From the NCBI RefSeq assembly GCF_022695985.1, contig NZ_JAAPBF010000001.1, forward strand, positions 1-64,000: 64,000 nt of DNA, in the 5' to 3' direction. Each line of letters begins with the position of its first letter. Positions within the stretch are counted from its first letter, which is position 1. The stretch is from Streptomyces sp. NP-1717 (GTDB lineage: Bacteria; Actinomycetota; Actinomycetes; Streptomycetales; Streptomycetaceae). Positions 55,387-64,000 of this stretch are shown here, piece by piece. The notes beneath the pieces were generated by a model that had not been told where the DNA came from, did not search any database, and saw only the letters and a program-made list of their open reading frames with translations. A program made the position numbers and the translations under genes.

Positions 55387-56514
55387 ATGGCAACTCTGTG
55401 CAGGCCCGCCATCGCCGTCCCCGACCACGTCATCACCATGGAACAGACCGTGGAGCTGGCGCGGTCGCTGCATCCCGATCACCCTCAACTCGACCTCGCC
55501 GTACGGCTGATCAGCAACACGGGCGTGCGCACCAGACGTCTGGTGCGGCCCATCGAGGAGACCCTCCGCCATCCCGGATTCACCGCCCGGAACGACGCCT
55601 ACGAGGTGGAGGCGAAGGCCAGGGTGCCCGAGGTCGCGGAGCGGGCCCTGGCCCACGCCGAACTCACGCCGCGGGACATCGACATGATCGTCTACGTGTC
55701 GTGCACGGGCTTCATGATGCCCTCGATGACCGCGTGGCTCATCAACACGATGGGCTTCGGATCGAACACCCGGCAGCTGCCGATCGCTCAGCTGGGGTGC
55801 GCCGCGGGCGGCGCGGCGATCAACCGCGCGCACGACTTCTGCTCCGCGTACCCGGAGTCGAACGTGCTGATCGTGGCCTGTGAGTTCTGCTCGCTGTGCT
55901 ACCAGCCGACGGATCTCGCCGTGGGCAATCTGCTCTCCAACGGCCTCTTCGGCGACGCCGTCGCCGCCGCGGTGGTCCGGGGCGAGGGCGGCACGGGCGT
56001 GCGGCTGGAGCGCAACGGGTCCCATCTGGTGCCGGAGACGGAGGACTGGATCTCCTACGCGGTCCGCGACACCGGCTTCCACTTCATGCTCGACAAGCGC
56101 GTGCCCGGCACCATGTCCGTACTCGCCCCCGCCATGCGGGAGATGGCCGAGCCGCACGACTGGGACGTCTCCGGACTCGACTTCTACATCGTGCACGCCG
56201 GCGGGCCCAGGATCCTGGACGACCTCTGCCACTACCTCGACGTACCGGCGGAGATGTTCCGCTACAGCAGGGCGACCCTCACCGAGCGGGGCAACATCGC
56301 CAGCGGCGTCATCTTCGACGCCCTGGACCGCTTCTTCGAGGACGGCGGCGCCGAGCACGGCGCCCGGGGGGTGATCGCGGGCTTCGGTCCCGGCATCACC
56401 GCCGAACTCGCCCTCGGCACCTGGTCGGTGAGCGGCCACGAGAGCGGCGGCATCGAACGGGAAGTGATCCTGCCGGCGCCGGCCCTGATGTCGCAGTCGG
56501 ACGCGGTCGGCTGA
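55387..56514 (+). CDS. rppA: Type III polyketide synthase, 1,3,6,8-tetrahydroxynaphthalene synthase
   Basis: 375 residues, ATG preceded by AAGGAG. The catalytic triad is Cys138 (QLGCAAGG), His270 (IVHAGGPR) and Asn303 (GNIASG), and Cys106 (VSCTGFMMPSM), the RppA-specific residue that shapes starter use, is present at the expected number. It condenses five malonyl-CoA to tetrahydroxynaphthalene, which oxidises to flaviolin and dark pigments. The upstream P450 would couple the product. No aromatic prenyltransferase or oxidase is adjacent. Confidence 0.95.
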   Translation: MATLCRPAIAVPDHVITMEQTVELARSLHPDHPQLDLAVRLISNTGVRTRRLVRPIEETLRHPGFTARNDAYEVEAKARVPEVAERALAHAELTPRDIDMIVYVSCTGFMMPSMTAWLINTMGFGSNTRQLPIAQLGCAAGGAAINRAHDFCSAYPESNVLIVACEFCSLCYQPTDLAVGNLLSNGLFGDAVAAAVVRGEGGTGVRLERNGSHLVPETEDWISYAVRDTGFHFMLDKRVPGTMSVLAPAMREMAEPHDWDVSGLDFYIVHAGGPRILDDLCHYLDVPAEMFRYSRATLTERGNIASGVIFDALDRFFEDGGAEHGARGVIAGFGPGITAELALGTWSVSGHESGGIEREVILPAPALMSQSDAVG

Positions 56515-56590: not shown

Positions 56591-56935
56591 CTAGCTCGGG
56601 CCACCGATGCTGATCCCGGGGCCCTCCGGGCGCTCGTCCCTGTCGTGCGGCATCAGCTCGATCTCGATCCGGTGCAGGTTCTCGCTCGACGCCGTCCCGC
56701 CCGCCTCGGCCGTGATGACGCCGATGTTCAGCCCCGCCTTGCCGGTGCCCTCGCGCCTTACCTGCACCGCGAATTCGACGTGCACGCGCTCCACCCGGAA
56801 CTGGAGTCTGCTCTCGCGGCCGTCGCGCTGCGCCTCTTCCAGCTCCTCGCGGATCCGGCCGATCACCTCGGCGAGACCGGCGGTCTCCGCACCGCCGTGC
56901 CCACCACGTGCGCCACGCCCGTCACCCGCGCCCAT
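56591..56935 (-). CDS. Trypsin-co-occurring domain (Trypco2-like) protein
   Basis: 114 residues from ATG 56935 with GGGAGG seven bases upstream. After a Gly-rich start, GLAEVIGRIREELEEAQRDGRESRLQFRVERVHVEFAVQVRREGTGKAGLNIGVITAEAG forms a helix followed by long beta strands, then HRIEIELMPHDRD. This matches the small Trypco2 domain described as a companion of trypsin-like proteins in regulated conflict systems. It diverges from the trypsin-kinase gene over 62 bases, so the two are probably co-regulated. It may bind or be cut by the protease. Confidence 0.75.
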   Translation of the reverse strand: MGAGDGRGARGGHGGAETAGLAEVIGRIREELEEAQRDGRESRLQFRVERVHVEFAVQVRREGTGKAGLNIGVITAEAGGTASSENLHRIEIELMPHDRDERPEGPGISIGGPS

Positions 56936-56983
56936 TTCGATCCTCCCGTTACGCAGCGAGGGCGACTTGTCACCCCCCGTGGC

Positions 56984-56989
56984 TATTGT
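56984..56989 (+). promoter_or_regulatory. Possible -10 box for leaderless transcription of the protease-kinase gene
   Basis: TATTGT ends eight bases before the ATG at 56998, placing the expected start point at or next to the A of the ATG. No ribosome-binding site precedes this ATG, as expected for leaderless messages, which are common in actinomycetes. No good -35 box was found at the right distance. Confidence 0.4.
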
Positions 56990-56997
56990 TGTGCAGT

Positions 56998-59900
56998 ATG
57001 AGGGAGCCCGAAGCCACTTCCAACTCCAGCTCGTGGGAGGGCGCTTGGCGCGTCCGGCTGGCCCAGGACGAGAGCGGCACCGCCTCACCGCTCGGCGCCG
57101 GGGTGCTGCTGCCGGGTGGGCTGGTGCTCACCTGTGCCCATGTGGTGCTGGCCAAACCCCGGCGCGGGACGGACGGTTCAGGGGGATCGGGCCGACGCGG
57201 TGGTCCGCCGCGGCCGGTCGACACCCTCTACGCGGAGTTCCCCGCCGCTCCGGCGCACCCGCCCGTGCGGCTGCGCGCCGAGGTGCTGGCCGAGCATCTC
57301 GCCCCGCCGACCTCGCGGTTCAGCGGCGACATCGCCCTGCTGCGGCTGGCCGCCGTGCCACCGGTGGAGACCGCCGTACTGCACCGCCGTGTCCCCTCGC
57401 GCGGCACATCGGTGCACGCGGTCGGCTACACGGACCGGCTGCCCGGTGGTGAGCGCATCGACGCCCGCCTCATGGGGCTGGGTGGCCCCGCGCGCTACCC
57501 CGAGTGGGTCCAACTCGATCCGGACGGAGGGTCGTACGCGGTGCGCCACGGGTACAGCGGCAGCGGTGTGGTCACCGGATCGGGTGACGTACTCGGCATC
57601 CTGGTCCACCAGTTCGGGACCGAGCAGTACCCGGTCGCGGTCAGCCACGCGTACATGATCCCGACCGACACCATCCTGCGCTATCTGTCGGTCCTGCGGC
57701 ACCCACAGGCGGATCGGTCGGCCAAGTTGCGGGTGACGGGGGCTCCCGCCCTGTCGCCCACCATCCCGCGCGATCCGCCCGGAAGCGGTTCGGCCCGCGC
57801 TCTCGGACTGCGCCGCAAGGTGACCCACTGGCTCATCGACTCGGTTCCGGCGACGGGCACGACGGGCACGACCCCCGCCCCGGTCTCGGATCCGGTGTCC
57901 GGGGCCGACCCGGCGGGCGGCAGGCGCGCGACCACGGAGCCGGTGGAGGTGATCTTCGCCCGCGACGACCGGCACGACGACATGGCGGCGATCCACGCCA
58001 CCCTCAACCTCGCCGACCGCGAACGCAATCCGCGCCCGACGGGTACGGGCGGCGGCTCCGAACCGCCCGCCGGTTCGATCGACATCGCCGTGGACACAGC
58101 AGATCTGACGGCCGGTCAGCTCATCGCGCTCACCGCCGAACGCATCGGGCTCGCGGACCCGGCCGGCCAGGCCGGATCAGAGAGACCCGGCGGACCCGAG
58201 GACCACGACCGCGCCCTGGCCCGGATCGCCGGGGACAGCCCGCCGATCGCCGCCGCGTTCCTCTCCGTCGACCGGACGGCCCCGACCGGCGAGGCCGCGA
58301 TACCCCTGCTCAGGGCGTTACGGGCGAGCGGACAGACCCGGCTGCTGCTCGTCTTCCGCGACCCCGGCTCCCCGTCGCTCGAACGCGTTGTGGACACCCT
58401 GCTCGACGACGGCTGGGCCGAGCGCCGCACGACGGCCGCCGCCGCGCGGCTCGACGTGCTCGCCGAGCTGGAGCGGAGGTTCCGCAGGCTCAGCGCGCAC
58501 CCCGGTGTCCCGCGCATCACCGACGCGCCGCGGCCGGTCCACCGCCGACTGGCCGCGCGGCTGGCCGAGTTGCGGACGGACGGCGAGATCCCGCGCCGGA
58601 GCGCCGCCCTCGCCCACGACCTGTTCCTGCTCGACATCGACGTCGAGGACGCCATCCAGCGCACGGGATCCGCCGTACGTCTCCTCGACCGCCCCTACGC
58701 ACCGGGCGAGTACGTGGTGACTCCGCCCGGTGACGGCCTCACCGATCTGCCGCACATCGCCGTCGAGGACCCCGACACGTTCGTCGAGCCCGAGGCGGAG
58801 GCGCCGAAGGACTCCGAGTCCGGCCTCGTACGCGGCCAGGAGCTGCACCAGCAGTACAAGGTCGTCGGGCTGCTCGGGGAGGGGAGTTTCGGGCAGGTGT
58901 ATCTCGCCCGTGACCAGATGCTGGAGAACCGCCCGGTGGCCCTGAAGGGCGCACGGGACCCCGGCGACGCGACCGACCGGCGGATCTCCCGCCTCGAACT
59001 GCTGCGGCTGGTCAGTCTCAACCACCCGTCCATCATCAAGGTGTTCAACTACGCCCGGCATCCCGGCCGCCCCGACCGGCCCGGACACCCGGCGAACAAC
59101 GCCCGGTTCATCGTGATGGAGTTCGCCGACGGCGCGCCTCTCCAGTGGGTCGCCGAGCAGATCGCGCGCGACGAGGCACCGTTCGACGGCTATCGCGTCC
59201 ATGAGTTCATCGCCGCCTACGGCCTGCGGATCCTGGACGCGCTCAGCTATCTGCACGAAGAGGAGGGCTTCGTCTACGGCGATCTCTCCCTCACCAATGT
59301 CATCCACTGCGGCAACGGCATCAAACTCATCGACGTCGCGGGCGTACGGAGAATCGGGCACGCGGGCCCCGTCACCTATCGGGCGCCCGAACTCGGCACA
59401 TCCACCGAAGTGACGGTGGCGGCCGACCTGTTCGCGGTCGGAGCCGTCCTCCAGGAACTCTTCGACCGGGTCCCCACCCATCCCGTCGACCTCGGTACGA
59501 CCTCACTCCAGCGTGTCCTGAACAGGGCGCAGGCGGCGCGCCCCGGGGACCGGTTCGCCGACGCGCGGGAGATGGCCGTCCAACTCCACGGTGTGCTGCG
59601 CGAGCTGCGCTCGCTGCGCCTCGGCGAGGAGACGTTCGAGCCGTCGCCGCTGTTCTCGGTCGCACCCACCGCGCTCGACGGCGAACTCGGCAAGGCACCG
59701 CCGCTCGAACAGTGGCGGCACGGGGGCAACCACAAACGGCCGCTGACGATACGGCCGCCGCGCCCCGCCGAGGTGGCCGTCGGCCTGCCCGTACCGAGAC
59801 CGAGCAGACAGGACCCCAACTGGAAGGAGCTTCAGCGCACGTCGTACGACGATCCGGCAGGTCTGCTCCAGCTCAGCGCCGACTGGCAGCTCTCCCCCGA

Positions 59901-60900
59901 ACTGGCCCTCCTGCGCTGCCGTCTCCATCTGGAGGTCGCCCGCTACCAGCCGGCCGGCGCGGGCACGGGGCTGGCGTCCGCCACCGCCGAGCTGAGGCGG
60001 GCCGAGGCCGCCGTCGGCCCACTGGCCGAGTACGACTGGCGGCTGCGCTGGCACCGGGGGTTGCTCCAGCTCGCCGCCGACGACGTCGAGTCGGCGCTCC
60101 GGTCCTTCGACGGGGTCTACGCGGCGATTCCCGGCGAGTACGCGCCCAAGCTCGCGCTCGGCTACTGCTACGAGATCCTCGACCGGCCGGAGGAGGCGAT
60201 GGTCTTCTACGGCGCGGTGTGGAAGCGCAACCACGCGCTCGGCAGTGCGGCCTTCGGGCTGGCCCGTATCCATCTGGCCGACGGCGACAGCGGTCCGGCC
60301 CTCGCCCGGCTCGAAGCCGTTCCCCCCGACTCGCGGCACCGCACCGCCGCCCGCACCGGCATGGTGCGGATCCACGCCGATCTGCCGGCCGAAGGTGGTC
60401 CGCCGAGCGTGGACGCCGCGAAGCAGGCGTGCGTTGCGCTCCACCGGCTCGCCCGATACGAGGGGCTGACGGACCGTCACGCCCAGGAGCGGCTGCGCAC
60501 CGACCTGTTGGAGCTGCTGCTCCGGCTGGTCGTGACAGCCCCGGAGCCGGACCCGCTGCGCGCGCTCCGTGAGTCGCTGGACAAGGACATCCCCATCCCC
60601 CTCACCGAACACGATCTGCGGGAGCAGTTGGGCGCCGGTTACGAGCGGCTCTCGGAGCAGGTGCCGCGCACCGCGCTGCGCGAGCACACCCATTTGGAGA
60701 GGGCCCTGCTCGACAACGCGTACCGCACCCGCCCGTTCGCGTTCAGCCACAACCGGGGTGAGCGGCGTCAGGGCCGGCTGCGGGGCTGGCGGCCGGGCCG
60801 GCTGCGGGGCCTGCTGGGCGGCCGGGCGGACCGGTCGCAGGTGCCGGACACCGGGGGCATGGGCGACGACCGCTGGAACGCCTTCACCGGGGAGCGTTGA
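56998..60900 (+). CDS. Trypsin-like protease - STAND-like region - PknG-like kinase - TPR fusion protein
   Basis: 1300 residues from ATG 56998. Residues 15-235: trypsin-like domain with His48 (LTCAHVV), Asp111 (SGDIALLRL) and Ser187 in HGYSGSGVV, where the usual GDSGG is GYSGS. Residues about 315-500: alpha/beta region with VDTADLTAGQLIALTAERIG, AFLSVDRTAPTGEAAIPLLRALR and LLLVFRDPG, which resembles a STAND NTPase core without a Walker A loop. Residues about 615-870: kinase, G-loop GEGSFGQVYLAR, Lys650, VYGDLSLTN (Asp762) and LIDVAG in place of DFG, closest to PknG (known there as NDLKPEN and IDLGA). Residues about 960-1190: PknG-type TPRs. Codon 441 is TTA. No TM helix, so cytosolic. Signalling role inferred. 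Confidence 0.85.
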   Translation: MREPEATSNSSSWEGAWRVRLAQDESGTASPLGAGVLLPGGLVLTCAHVVLAKPRRGTDGSGGSGRRGGPPRPVDTLYAEFPAAPAHPPVRLRAEVLAEHLAPPTSRFSGDIALLRLAAVPPVETAVLHRRVPSRGTSVHAVGYTDRLPGGERIDARLMGLGGPARYPEWVQLDPDGGSYAVRHGYSGSGVVTGSGDVLGILVHQFGTEQYPVAVSHAYMIPTDTILRYLSVLRHPQADRSAKLRVTGAPALSPTIPRDPPGSGSARALGLRRKVTHWLIDSVPATGTTGTTPAPVSDPVSGADPAGGRRATTEPVEVIFARDDRHDDMAAIHATLNLADRERNPRPTGTGGGSEPPAGSIDIAVDTADLTAGQLIALTAERIGLADPAGQAGSERPGGPEDHDRALARIAGDSPPIAAAFLSVDRTAPTGEAAIPLLRALRASGQTRLLLVFRDPGSPSLERVVDTLLDDGWAERRTTAAAARLDVLAELERRFRRLSAHPGVPRITDAPRPVHRRLAARLAELRTDGEIPRRSAALAHDLFLLDIDVEDAIQRTGSAVRLLDRPYAPGEYVVTPPGDGLTDLPHIAVEDPDTFVEPEAEAPKDSESGLVRGQELHQQYKVVGLLGEGSFGQVYLARDQMLENRPVALKGARDPGDATDRRISRLELLRLVSLNHPSIIKVFNYARHPGRPDRPGHPANNARFIVMEFADGAPLQWVAEQIARDEAPFDGYRVHEFIAAYGLRILDALSYLHEEEGFVYGDLSLTNVIHCGNGIKLIDVAGVRRIGHAGPVTYRAPELGTSTEVTVAADLFAVGAVLQELFDRVPTHPVDLGTTSLQRVLNRAQAARPGDRFADAREMAVQLHGVLRELRSLRLGEETFEPSPLFSVAPTALDGELGKAPPLEQWRHGGNHKRPLTIRPPRPAEVAVGLPVPRPSRQDPNWKELQRTSYDDPAGLLQLSADWQLSPELALLRCRLHLEVARYQPAGAGTGLASATAELRRAEAAVGPLAEYDWRLRWHRGLLQLAADDVESALRSFDGVYAAIPGEYAPKLALGYCYEILDRPEEAMVFYGAVWKRNHALGSAAFGLARIHLADGDSGPALARLEAVPPDSRHRTAARTGMVRIHADLPAEGGPPSVDAAKQACVALHRLARYEGLTDRHAQERLRTDLLELLLRLVVTAPEPDPLRALRESLDKDIPIPLTEHDLREQLGAGYERLSEQVPRTALREHTHLERALLDNAYRTRPFAFSHNRGERRQGRLRGWRPGRLRGLLGGRADRSQVPDTGGMGDDRWNAFTGER
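58318..58320 (+). promoter_or_regulatory. In-frame TTA (bldA) codon in the protease-kinase gene
   Basis: TTA is codon 441 (Leu of LLRALRASG). Translation of this gene would depend on the bldA leucyl-tRNA. Confidence 0.8.
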
Positions 60901-62033
60901 TGGGCCGCCGGTCCGCCGTGCGTTCGTGGCTGCGGTCCGCCCTGACGGCCGGGAGGTCGGCCGGGTCCGCCGTATGGCGGTCGGTGTGGCTGCCGTTGTG
61001 GCGCAGGTCCTCGGGCCGTACGCCCACGGGTCGGCGACGTCATACGGCTCCGTTCCTGTTCAGCCGCATGCTGCTGCTCCCGGCGCTCGCCCTGACGGTC
61101 CTGGCGCTGGCCGGGACGGCGTATCTGGACCTCGACGGCCGTACGGAACAGTTGCGTGAGCGCTACGCCCCCGCGATGGTCGAACTGGCCCATGCCAGAA
61201 CGTCGTTGGATCTGGCGCACAAGGAGGCGTCGCTGCGCCTCCGCGGGGACGACGGAGAGCCGCTGCTCCAGACCGATCTCGTCGGGCTCGGGGAGAGGTA
61301 CCCGTCACTGCTGACCGAAGCGGCGCAGAGCCTCAACAACGCGGCCCAGACGAAGGCGCTGCGCGCCGAACAGGAACAGGAGGTCCGTGTGGTGTCGGGG
61401 CTGGTGGTGGCCTACGACGACTGGATCGGCTGGGCCGGCAGCCACCACGACAGCGAGGTGCTGCGTACGGCGGGACTGGACTACGCCGCGAGCCTGCTGG
61501 GCGCCCCGCCCAAGTCATCCGATGACACCACCGTCCTCTACCGCATCCGGGCTCTCGAAGGGGAGTTGAGAGCGGACGCGTCGGAACTGTCGGGCTGGAC
61601 CGGGCTCTCCACCGTGACGGCGTGGGCCGCGCTGCTGGCCGTGCTGGTCTTCGTGTCCGCCGTCGTCGGGACGCTCGACTTCGTCCTGGCGCAGCTACGG
61701 GTGCGCAGCCCGTTGCTGACGCTGTACGCGCTGCCGGTCCTGCTGGCACTGGGCGTACTGGTGCTCGGGGCGGCCGGTCAGCAGCACGCTCAGCGGAAGG
61801 TGGCGGCGGCGGGAGTCGAACTGGCCGCGGTGAGCGCGACGCCGGCGGCCGGTAACCGGATCGAGGTACTGGAGGAGGAATTGGCCGTCGATCTGCGCGG
61901 CACGCACCCGGGGGCGTGGACGCTGGCCGCCGAACTCGCCCTGGCCGTCGGGGCGGTGGGCGCGGTGGCGTCCGGATTCACGCTGTTCCACTACGGCCGC
62001 AAGCACTTGCAGATCCTCTGGAGGGCGCCGTGA
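60900..62033 (+). CDS. GlnX-like membrane sensor protein with four TM helices
   Basis: 377 residues; ATG overlaps the kinase stop by one base (TGATG) and GGGGAG lies five bases ahead. Very basic N terminus (residues 1-50), TM1 about 57-76, an external helical region 77-236 that looks like a coiled four-helix sensor bundle, TM2 237-262, TM3 270-292, a second external segment 293-336, and TM4 338-364. No enzyme motif. Position between a PknG-like kinase and a binding lipoprotein, and the four-helix layout, match mycobacterial GlnX, which passes the ligand signal of GlnH to PknG. Sequence similarity to GlnX was not tested. Confidence 0.75.
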   Translation: MGRRSAVRSWLRSALTAGRSAGSAVWRSVWLPLWRRSSGRTPTGRRRHTAPFLFSRMLLLPALALTVLALAGTAYLDLDGRTEQLRERYAPAMVELAHARTSLDLAHKEASLRLRGDDGEPLLQTDLVGLGERYPSLLTEAAQSLNNAAQTKALRAEQEQEVRVVSGLVVAYDDWIGWAGSHHDSEVLRTAGLDYAASLLGAPPKSSDDTTVLYRIRALEGELRADASELSGWTGLSTVTAWAALLAVLVFVSAVVGTLDFVLAQLRVRSPLLTLYALPVLLALGVLVLGAAGQQHAQRKVAAAGVELAAVSATPAAGNRIEVLEEELAVDLRGTHPGAWTLAAELALAVGAVGAVASGFTLFHYGRKHLQILWRAP

Positions 62034-63328
62034 GGGCACGCTACGGAATCGTCCGCTCGGCGCTGGCGGGTGCCCTGCTCGCCGGGGTGGCCGTCGTGTC
62101 CGCGGGCTGCGCGGCCGAGGAGAAGCCGACGCTGGTGGTGCTCGGTCCGTGGACCGGCGGCGAGGAGGCTCCTTTCAAGAAGATGCTCCAGGAGATGGGC
62201 AGGAAGAACGGCAAGCACTATGTGTACGAGGGCACGCGCTCGCTGCGGGAGACGCTGGTCGCGCAGTTACGGACGGAGTCGCCGCCCGACGTGGCGATCC
62301 TCAACGGCCCCGGCGAGTTGGCCGAGTACGCGTTCGAGGGGGACGCCCAGCCGCTCCCCTCGGACGTGGTGGGCCGGGCCATAGAGCCGTGGGCCCCGCG
62401 TATCAGTGTCGCGGACAAGCACGGGGACATGCAGGAGCGCGCCTACTGGGTGCCGGTGCGGGTGGATCTCAAGTCCATCGTCTGGAGCAGGGCGGGCGAG
62501 GAGAGGGCGGCGGACGAGGACGCCGTGTGGTGCCTGGGCATGGCGTCGGGTGCGACGTCGGGGTGGCCTGGCACGGACTGGATCGAGGACCTGCTGCTGC
62601 AGCGGGAGGGCCCCGACGCGTACGAGCGGTGGGCCACCGGCGCCCTGGCGTGGACCGACAAGCGGGTGAAACGGGCGTGGCAGGACTGGGCCGCCCTGCT
62701 CACCACCGATGTGGACAACGCCAAGGAGGCGATCACCAGACCGTTCGAGAGTCTCGGCAAGGACCGGTTCGGGCTGCTGAACAAGCCCGGCTACTGCACA
62801 CGCGAGCATCAGGGTTCCTTCGCCCGCCGCCATTACGGTCTCGACGTGATGCCTGCCCCGACCTCCGACTTCGTCAAGGGGCTGCCCGCGGACCAGAACG
62901 CGTTCGAGGTGTCGGGTGACATGGCGGCGGTGTTCAAACCGAGCGACGCGGCGTGGGAGTTGGTGATCGAACTCACCTCGCAGAGTGCCCGGAACGAATG
63001 GGTCAGGGCGGCGGAACCGGAGGAGCAGCCGTTCTTCCCGTCCGGTGCGGCGGGAGCGAAGGGCGCGACCCCGGCGTCGAGGGAGATCCTGCGGATACTC
63101 AACGACGCGGAGCGGATCTGCCTCGACGCCTCCGATGCCATGCCGTCGACGCTGCGGGGTGCCTTCCAGCGGGCGGTGCTGGAGTTTCTGGAGAATCCGC
63201 GGGACGAGGCGGTGCTCGACGGTCTGCTCGCCCAGCTGGAGGCGGAGCGACTGCTCCAGAAGCGGGCGAAGGCGTTCGTCCTGGACGATCTGTGCGATGT
63301 GCCGCCCGGCAGGTCGCCGGAAGGGTGA
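62030..63328 (+). CDS. Solute-binding lipoprotein (GlnH role), without an ABC transporter
   Basis: 432 residues from GTG 62030, overlapping the preceding stop as GTGA, GGAGG five bases before. Signal peptide with lipobox SAGC27, so anchored outside. LVVLGPWTGGEEAPFKKMLQEM, PPDVAILNGPGELAEYAFEG, YWVPVRVDLKSIVWSR and DMAAVFKPSDAAWELVIELTS match family 1 (sugar-type) extracellular binding proteins of about 400-430 residues. No permease or ATPase is adjacent, so it is likely a receptor rather than part of a transporter. Codon 80 is TTA (62267-62269). Ligand unknown. Confidence 0.82.
   Translation: MRARYGIVRSALAGALLAGVAVVSAGCAAEEKPTLVVLGPWTGGEEAPFKKMLQEMGRKNGKHYVYEGTRSLRETLVAQLRTESPPDVAILNGPGELAEYAFEGDAQPLPSDVVGRAIEPWAPRISVADKHGDMQERAYWVPVRVDLKSIVWSRAGEERAADEDAVWCLGMASGATSGWPGTDWIEDLLLQREGPDAYERWATGALAWTDKRVKRAWQDWAALLTTDVDNAKEAITRPFESLGKDRFGLLNKPGYCTREHQGSFARRHYGLDVMPAPTSDFVKGLPADQNAFEVSGDMAAVFKPSDAAWELVIELTSQSARNEWVRAAEPEEQPFFPSGAAGAKGATPASREILRILNDAERICLDASDAMPSTLRGAFQRAVLEFLENPRDEAVLDGLLAQLEAERLLQKRAKAFVLDDLCDVPPGRSPEG
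62267..62269 (+). promoter_or_regulatory. In-frame TTA (bldA) codon in the binding-lipoprotein gene
   Basis: TTA is codon 80 (Leu of VAQLRTE). It is the second TTA codon in the protease-kinase operon. Confidence 0.8.
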
Positions 63329-63406: not shown

Positions 63407-64000
63407 TCAGGGAGTGATGGCGATGTTCGTCAGGCCGCGCCCGCCGGTGACCGTGTTGTTCGAGTGCACCGTGGTGCGGCAGCCGGCGGTGTCGGCGGTG
63501 ACGTTGATGGCGAGCTGCTTGTCGCCGGTGGCGCCGGTGAGATCCGACCTGTTGCCCCGGAAGACGGTGCCGCAGCCCCAGCCCGGCTGCTGGGTGTGGG
63601 TCTCGAAGCCGTTGTTGGTGGTGTTCTTCCCGGTGTTGTTCTCGACGAGCGTGTTGTTGCCCTTCACGTCGACCCAGGAGTCGTCGAAGTTGGCACCGGT
63701 CAGCCCGCGGCCGTCGAAGATGTTCCCGATGATCTTCGCTCCGGTGGTGCCCTCCTTGATGTCGATGGCCTCGCCGCCGACGTCGGGACCGATCGTGTTG
63801 CCGATGATCTGTGTGTTGTCGCTCTTGTCGGAGGTGCCGCCGGCCGAGCCGACGTACACGCCTTCGCCCATGCCCCGGCCGTCGTTGCCGGTGTCGTGGA
63901 TACGGGAGTTCTTGATGACGCCGTCGCGGCTGGAGTTGCGGAAGTGGACGCCTTCCATGTCCAGGTCGTGCACGACGACGGAGTCGATGACGACGCCGGC
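63407..64000 (-). CDS. Right-handed beta-helix protein, 5' partial
   Basis: The frame is open to the window edge, so the N terminus is outside; about 198 C-terminal residues are visible. Repeated short turns rich in Asn/Gly (GVIKNSRIHDTGNDGRGMGEGVYVGSA, NTQIIGNTIGPDVGGEAIDIKEGTTGAKIIGN, NTLVENNTGKNTTNNG) are those of the pectate-lyase-like parallel beta-helix fold. One Cys pair near the end (WGCG ... AGCRTTV) fits a secreted protein. Polysaccharide lyase or binding role is likely; no catalytic residue can be assigned in this part. Confidence 0.8.
   Translation of the reverse strand, partial: AGVVIDSVVVHDLDMEGVHFRNSSRDGVIKNSRIHDTGNDGRGMGEGVYVGSAGGTSDKSDNTQIIGNTIGPDVGGEAIDIKEGTTGAKIIGNIFDGRGLTGANFDDSWVDVKGNNTLVENNTGKNTTNNGFETHTQQPGWGCGTVFRGNRSDLTGATGDKQLAINVTADTAGCRTTVHSNNTVTGGRGLTNIAITP

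Follow-up and report, generated by a model that had tools for sequence, protein, structure and literature searches.

A Streptomyces operon joining PknG-type receptor parts to a trypsin-like protease: a candidate ligand-gated intracellular protease

Could a receptor of the kind that serves the kinase PknG control a protease inside the cell? The question is raised by a locus of Streptomyces sp. NP-1717 within positions 1 to 64,000 of contig NZ_JAAPBF010000001.1, a stretch of 64,000 nucleotides that we call the window. At window positions 56591-63328, a gene for a Trypco2 protein diverges from a three-gene operon that encodes a protease-kinase fusion, a GlnX-like membrane protein and a family-1 binding protein. 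Two kinds of system already known, the nutrient-sensing PknG relay and the trypsin-STAND-Trypco2 association, meet here in a new variant, so that subjects studied separately are joined in one protein. Gene calls bear out the coordinates and the four genes that a first-pass annotation had proposed, including its overlaps of 1 base between the fusion stop and the GlnX-like gene and of 4 bases between the GlnX-like and binding-protein genes. The features are listed below; the labels L, G and C denote loci, genomes and contigs.

56935..56591, reverse strand: Trypco2 protein, 114 residues, ATG start; PF19631 match at E 2.9e-24; adjoins the fusion in 12/14 fusion loci
56936..56997, no strand: divergent intergenic region, with TTGTCA-N11-TATTGT close 5' of the fusion start codon, a by-eye reading
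56998..60900, forward strand: fusion gene, 1300 residues; trypsin, P-loop-less STAND-like domain, PknG-type kinase and PknG TPR domain
56998..57702, forward strand: trypsin/HtrA-like protease, fusion residues 1-235; PF13365 at 2.1e-9, Deg/HtrA fold, triad H48, D111 and S187
57760..58407, forward strand: putative STAND/AAA+-fold domain without P-loop, fusion residues 255-470; model, fold matches and relatives' profile matches
58414..58692, forward strand: long helices, fusion residues 473-565, from DSSP on models
58834..59625, forward strand: PknG-type kinase, fusion residues 613-876; Pkinase Pfam match, PDB sequence match to PknG, motif alignment
59761..60735, forward strand: PknG TPR domain, fusion residues 922-1246; PF16918 at 1.1e-37
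60900..62033, forward strand: GlnX-like membrane protein, 377 residues; profile-profile match, four hydrophobic stretches
62030..63328, forward strand: family-1 solute-binding protein, 432 residues, GTG start, secreted and possibly lipid-anchored; PF01547 at 1.1e-5

Each part of the locus can be related to a known family. The N-terminus of the fusion matches Trypsin_2 over residues 33-201, with its catalytic triad in place, and the modeled domain has the HtrA/Deg fold (fold match Z about 21). The neighboring Trypco2 protein scores 85.6 bits against a cut-off of 24.2; both partners of the trypsin-Trypco2 pairing suggested earlier are thus matched above cut-off. Toward the C-terminus, the Pkinase family matches at residues 620-839 (3.2e-19), the PknG TPR family follows, and among PDB sequences the fusion matches Mycobacterium tuberculosis PknG best (8.4e-53), which upholds the proposed relation to PknG. 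The membrane protein has no Pfam match above cut-off; it contains four hydrophobic stretches (near residues 52-70, 245-263, 272-290 and 339-364), and a profile of 78 rows aligns with a GlnX profile of 8 rows in hhalign at a probability of 98.8 and an E-value of 4.8e-16, where three column-shuffled controls gave 0.2 or less. Its claimed likeness to GlnX therefore stands. Searching the GlnX-like profile against PDB sequences returned chance-like matches only.

The binding protein matches SBP_bac_1 with bare significance (26.1 bits against a cut-off of 26.0), whereas the genome's own ordinary PknG operon carries an SBP_bac_3 protein, in agreement with the earlier assignment to family 1 and not family 3. 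The motif ATSGWPGTDW.ED is invariant in 7/7 aligned binding proteins; the lipobox is weak (VSAGC), and the strict lipobox pattern is unmatched. At the 0.001 threshold a single solved structure turns up as a relative, that of a chitin-oligosaccharide-binding protein (E 3.2e-4 over 59 positions), a match too weak to name the ligand.

Is the fused kinase still a kinase? In 14/14 fusions, K650, the helix-C Glu, D762 (the HRD Asp), N767 and D779 (the DFG Asp) are kept, while the Lys at position +2 of the HRD motif has become Ser (S764, DLK to DLS) and the DFG Gly has become Ala (A781, DVA). The same two replacements occur in the truncated members L037 and L038, giving 16 clade kinases in all. Both residues are kept in 25/25 separate forms, where trypsin and kinase are encoded by different genes, and in the other 29 of the 31 rows without a trypsin match, a group that includes five loci cut by a contig end, two of them being L037 and L038. 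Replacement of both residues across the clade indicates that phosphotransfer may be lost. Yet the domain is strongly constrained: its nonsynonymous substitution rate (dN) is the lowest of the compared domains in 6/7 fusion pairs, with a nonsynonymous-to-synonymous ratio (omega) of 0.08-0.37, although these pairs are not independent, as the window enters five of the seven. The exception is L030-L032, where the dN of Trypco2 is marginally lower (0.033 versus 0.035 for the kinase). That the kinase is altered and still under strong constraint suggests that it has a regulatory role; to judge by its motifs, the fusion-clade kinase most likely binds ATP as a switch and transfers phosphate weakly or not at all.

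The region ahead of the kinase differs between the forms as well. The fusion has no Pfam match to a rubredoxin domain; the separate-form kinase of L023, the sole one scanned against Pfam, contains the PknG rubredoxin domain. Within 200 residues before the kinase, CxxC pairs occur in 18/25 separate forms, 0/14 fusions and 2/31 rows without a trypsin match. PADLOC matches of the fusion all fall in its kinase part, and among four relatives it gave weak matches for two and none for the other two. In two relatives without trypsin (L019:8536-9747 and L021:8555-9247), an Ala/Gly-rich insert of about 230-400 residues lies inside the kinase domain.

We then ask what lies between protease and kinase. 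The middle of the fusion has no Pfam match above cut-off, and Pfam and PDB-sequence searches with it brought up coiled-coil and chance matches only. Modeled alone (residues 255-575), it reaches a predicted local distance difference test score (pLDDT) of 82.7 and a predicted template modeling score (pTM) of 0.84. Foldseek found no match to this model at E 0.001 or better; among the 50 rows shown, nearly all are AAA+ proteins or STAND relatives. VIA-align 2 placed it nearest Cdc6 (Z 11.3, 3.3 A over 153), TnsC (10.7) and CED-4 (10.5, 3.6 A over 152), with Dark at 9.4 and Apaf-1 at 9.0. An alignment of 33/39 trypsin rows (A4, leaving out L018, L022, L023, L084, L093 and L104) contains the Walker A motif GxxxxGK[ST] in 0/33 rows; the looser [AG]xxxxGK[ST] occurs in one row, L039, at another strand, and the Asp at the Walker B position (D425) is invariant.

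The sequence link to STAND proteins runs only through profile A6, built from ten separate-form middle domains, which matched 38/121 genomes of the family at 0.01, STAND proteins among them. Nine matched loci were examined: the exact Walker A motif is present in L201, L209 and L212, AGPGSGKT in L210, and a Lys-to-Arg change at the Walker A Lys in L211; L195 and L196 are strong A6 matches with a degenerate P-loop. L201 is a trypsin-STAND-WD40 protein (A6 match at 3.2e-15), and its trypsin region matches that of the window directly at 2.9e-11. Since the relatives' profile and the fold both match STAND proteins whose P-loop is intact, the likeliest reading of the middle domain is a STAND domain whose ATP switch has been lost, which gives substance to the 'possibly degenerate NTPase-like region' of the first-pass annotation. 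The last two of the nine loci, the trypsin proteins L206 and L207, carry half-degenerate P-loops (GGTTGTGTS and GGATGAGSS), and their sequences make them possible intermediates toward the operon's middle domain. Separate forms have the PknG operon's coiled-coil domain at the position of fusion residues 473-565; only in those forms did we see sequence homology to the coiled-coil protein, and none was found for this stretch of the fusion.

The genome of the window also contains, on contig C19 (L180:3681-7066), an NLR-like pair: a trypsin-NACHT-LRR gene with an intact P-loop and, behind it, a Trypco2 gene that overlaps it. Compared profile to profile, the middle domain and this NACHT show no direct relation: the probability was 0.07, and five shuffled controls gave 0.06, 0.09, 0.10, 0.12 and 4.08.

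How widely does the arrangement recur? An alignment of seven binding proteins, run against a single genome from each species, yielded 245 relatives, the best 80 of which were kept (79 from Streptomyces, one from Actinacidiphila) and annotated with profiles from the window and from L018, L019, L020, L022, L023 and L024. We classed 61/80 loci and dropped the 19 with no kinase match, or with a kinase less than 2500 bases from the locus start and no trypsin; in 18 of these a contig end cuts into the operon, and L055 has a full flank but no kinase match. Fusions make up 12/61 loci (vWA in 0/12, Trypco2 in 10/12), separate trypsin and kinase genes 23/61 (vWA in 23/23, Trypco2 in 8/23), and loci with kinase, membrane and binding proteins but no trypsin 26/61 (vWA and Trypco2 each in 0/26). 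With the window and L018 added, all four genes occur together in 12/14 fusion loci. The first-pass annotation had named as counts against it a lack of joint conservation and a lack of any protease or PknG relation; what we found was recurrence of the four genes and both relations, and recurrence of the arrangement rules out an artefact or chance neighbors.

Trypco2 is found in 18/35 loci with trypsin versus 0/26 without (Fisher p 6e-6, uncorrected for kinship). In the classed unfused loci, trypsin and vWA co-occur (23/23 versus 0/26), which suggests that the two act together; exceptions, with a vWA gene and no trypsin match, are L055, L163 and the ordinary PknG operon. No vWA gene was found in fusion loci. 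The trypsin triad is intact in 14/14 aligned fusions, and in 25 separate trypsin proteins the His is present in 23, the Asp in 24 and the Ser in 24; at L084 the gene reads in pieces and the triad His is unaligned.

Of 61 family genomes drawn separately, 59 had a PknG TPR match, and examining second copies revealed trypsin, kinase and binding protein together in at least 12/61 (G000, G006, G009, G014, G015, G026, G033, G034, G035, G043, G052 and G059). Genome counts of 7/150, 5/296 and 11/200 are lower bounds, as 6 to 13 candidates were scored per genome; the 5/296 count missed G009, G033 and G052, which carry the operon. Outside the family, where 12 stretches were annotated (three of the same genus), G377 has trypsin, middle domain, coiled coil, kinase, vWA, membrane and binding protein, and G203 has the operon set without a trypsin or middle-domain match. 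A class-wide binding-protein profile matched 146/296 genomes at 1e-20. Most of these matches stay below 205 bits and probably represent ordinary sugar-binding proteins, because the low-scoring loci annotated (L166-L169) lack other operon parts, as does the higher-scoring L162.

Where the fusion came from can be approached through the ordinary PknG operon, which this genome holds elsewhere (contig C122, locus L024). In L024 and L132-L137, that operon comprises GlnX, a binding protein, a coiled-coil protein and PknG; a vWA gene lies downstream of PknG in L132-L137, and none is seen in L024, whose contig ends soon after PknG. The first-pass annotation missed both these coiled-coil and vWA genes and the wider separate-gene form with vWA. 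A vWA profile from two trypsin operons matches the ordinary-operon vWA at 344-359 bits in 5/6 loci and at 38 bits in L135, and the L024 coiled-coil protein has matches at the C-terminal end of separate trypsin proteins (L092 at 1.2e-16, L091 at 3.7e-15). Thus, every part of the separate form except trypsin, STAND and Trypco2 has a counterpart in the ordinary operon, the binding protein being of another family. In a kinase-TPR tree of 71 rows, made by a quick method with a midpoint root, the 14 fusions form one clade with support 98, which the truncated L037 and L038 join with support 99. The shared parts, though not the midpoint-rooted tree, suggest that the separate form preceded the fusion. 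The coiled-coil protein between GlnH and PknG, which has no Pfam match in L024, and the vWA of L132-L137 go beyond the known glnX-glnH-pknG set.

We now turn to what the operon may do. Work on mycobacteria ties PknG activity to GlnH and GlnX and proposes that GlnX contacts PknG at its TPR domain (PMC6069109 and PMC8546545); loss of glnX copies loss of pknG, and GlnH ligands match the stimuli (PMC6069109). By homology with this relay, an extracellular small molecule would bind the family-1 binding protein, the GlnX-like protein would relay the change across the membrane, and its cytoplasmic part would engage the PknG-type TPR domain. By way of the kinase and the STAND domain that lacks a P-loop, the change would then reach the trypsin part of the fusion, which, once activated, would cut a cytoplasmic target; Trypco2 would be a protease partner, whether as adaptor, inhibitor or substrate. 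We infer in this way the signal's direction, the physical contacts, the protease activity, the ligand, the substrate and the purpose, which may have to do with nutrients, envelope damage or conflict. The operon is therefore read, tentatively and at slightly under even chances, as a receptor-coupled intracellular protease, ligand-gated through a kinase with weak or no phosphotransfer. A stronger claim, which we consider possible but on balance unlikely, is that a membrane receptor turns extracellular binding into intracellular proteolysis through a PknG-derived pseudokinase, a nutrient receptor having taken the place of both sensor repeats and ATP switch in an NLR-like trypsin-STAND protein; the fusion would then be a bacterial NLR effector gated by a surface signal.

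Several observations weigh against a ligand-gated protease. Some active phosphotransferases, such as aminoglycoside kinases and haspin, lack the +2 Lys, and so the fusion kinase could be active. A Trypco2 match is missing in 2/12 fusions and 15/23 separate forms, and L093, a separate form, is without all three triad residues. The receptor-kinase part can exist alone, given the 26/61 loci without trypsin, and L055 has vWA, GlnX-like and binding-protein genes with no kinase or trypsin match within 10 kb upstream. Contacts of GlnH with GlnX and of GlnX with PknG are undemonstrated even in Corynebacterium (PMC9769921).

If the kinase is active, its target may be Trypco2, or the protease or STAND part of the same protein, and phosphorylation would switch proteolysis. 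This is the ligand-to-kinase relay of the first-pass annotation; most catalytic residues are kept under strong purifying selection, and separate-form relatives retain the Lys and Gly, with the rubredoxin domain in the one checked. Loss of that Lys and Gly throughout the fusion clade seen here weakens its kinase step, however, and we regard the relay in this form as unlikely, a shade more so than the NLR-effector claim. The flow of information may also be reversed, with kinase-TPR as the output, set free when trypsin cuts the fusion somewhere between about residue 565 and residue 613. The model has low-confidence linker at 568-572 and 595-611, and the kinase is a separate protein at other loci, but its altered motifs make it a doubtful output, and such release is less probable again.

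A conflict or allorecognition receptor is just as improbable as self-cleavage. Here an NLR-like trypsin-STAND effector, in which a membrane receptor has taken over from sensor repeats and ATP switch, would kill or stall the cell when activated. The kinship of the middle domain with L201, the trypsin-NACHT-LRR protein with Trypco2 in the same genome, and the membership of Trypco2 with trypsin in proposed conflict systems (PMC7159879) all favor it; the sensor, however, belongs to a nutrient-binding family, the four neighboring genes checked by Pfam (DNA ligase, type III polyketide synthase, beta-helix protein and ClpB) are not defense genes, and no MoxR lies on the contig. Finally, the operon may be an ordinary second nutrient sensor whose protease part is decaying baggage. 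The loci with neither trypsin nor vWA (26/61) would fit, as would a trypsin omega above that of the kinase in 7/7 fusion pairs, but that omega is still 0.12-0.57, below 1, and the triad is intact in every fusion, making decay very improbable.

Comparison with known systems locates the novelty of the ligand-gated protease that we favor. With the PknG-GlnX-GlnH operon of Mycobacterium and Corynebacterium, the window shares a PknG kinase with TPR, a four-helix GlnX-like protein, a binding protein and a coupled operon. It differs in a family-1 binding protein in place of the SBP_bac_3 GlnH type, in a second periplasmic loop of about 50 residues versus about 153 in C. glutamicum GlnX (PMC9769921), in the missing rubredoxin match and changed kinase motifs, and in the fused trypsin-STAND region and added Trypco2. 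The ordinary Streptomyces PknG operon shares GlnX, binding protein and PknG, but has no trypsin, STAND or Trypco2 match and another gene order, with a family-3 binding protein in L024. Like the fusion, the NLR-like L201 and L180 have a trypsin with a STAND domain behind it, and L180 adjoins Trypco2, but the fusion lost the P-loop, has no sensor repeats and carries PknG-operon parts instead. Trypsin with Trypco2, and vWA in the separate forms, recall the VMAP and iSTAND MoxR-vWA ternary conflict systems; in contrast, the window genes have no Pfam VMAP match, with a P-loop-less STAND-fold domain present, and MoxR (PF07726) is missing from the window's contig, the genome's 5 matches all lying on other contigs, while PknG and a binding-protein receptor take their place.

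Among open-licence papers, Trypco2 turns up in two, both concerned with proposed conflict systems that contain trypsin, STAND and MoxR-vWA components; PMC7159879, one of them, has 0 occurrences of PknG, and we found no open-licence paper joining PknG with a trypsin-like protein, a vWA operon or a protease conflict system. Other Streptomyces kinases have been linked to binding proteins (PMC6069109), and they may include relatives. An outside chemical signal could control protein cutting inside the cell, via a kinase relay fused to a protease. Loci with separate genes, with fused genes and with no protease form a natural series for asking how a kinase-TPR module reads a binding-protein signal and how Trypco2 affects its protease, and the fusion clade is flagged as one where a PknG-type kinase may have turned pseudokinase together with its fusion to a protease.

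A few observations concern the surroundings. A type III polyketide synthase gene (window 55387-56514) lies directly upstream of the Trypco2 gene, and downstream neighbors encode a right-handed beta-helix protein (window 63407-64000) and a ClpB-type AAA+ protein (L025:408-5017). In another actinobacterial family, L159-L161 have GlnX-like and binding-protein genes adjacent with no kinase match (L159 being cut by a contig end), perhaps a receptor pair serving another partner. The TTGTCA-N11-TATTGT sequence before the fusion (window 56967-56989), compared by eye and without statistics, is identical in the window, L026, L027 and L034, with TATGCT for TATTGT in L039; from its position, it may be a promoter for a leaderless mRNA, or an operator.

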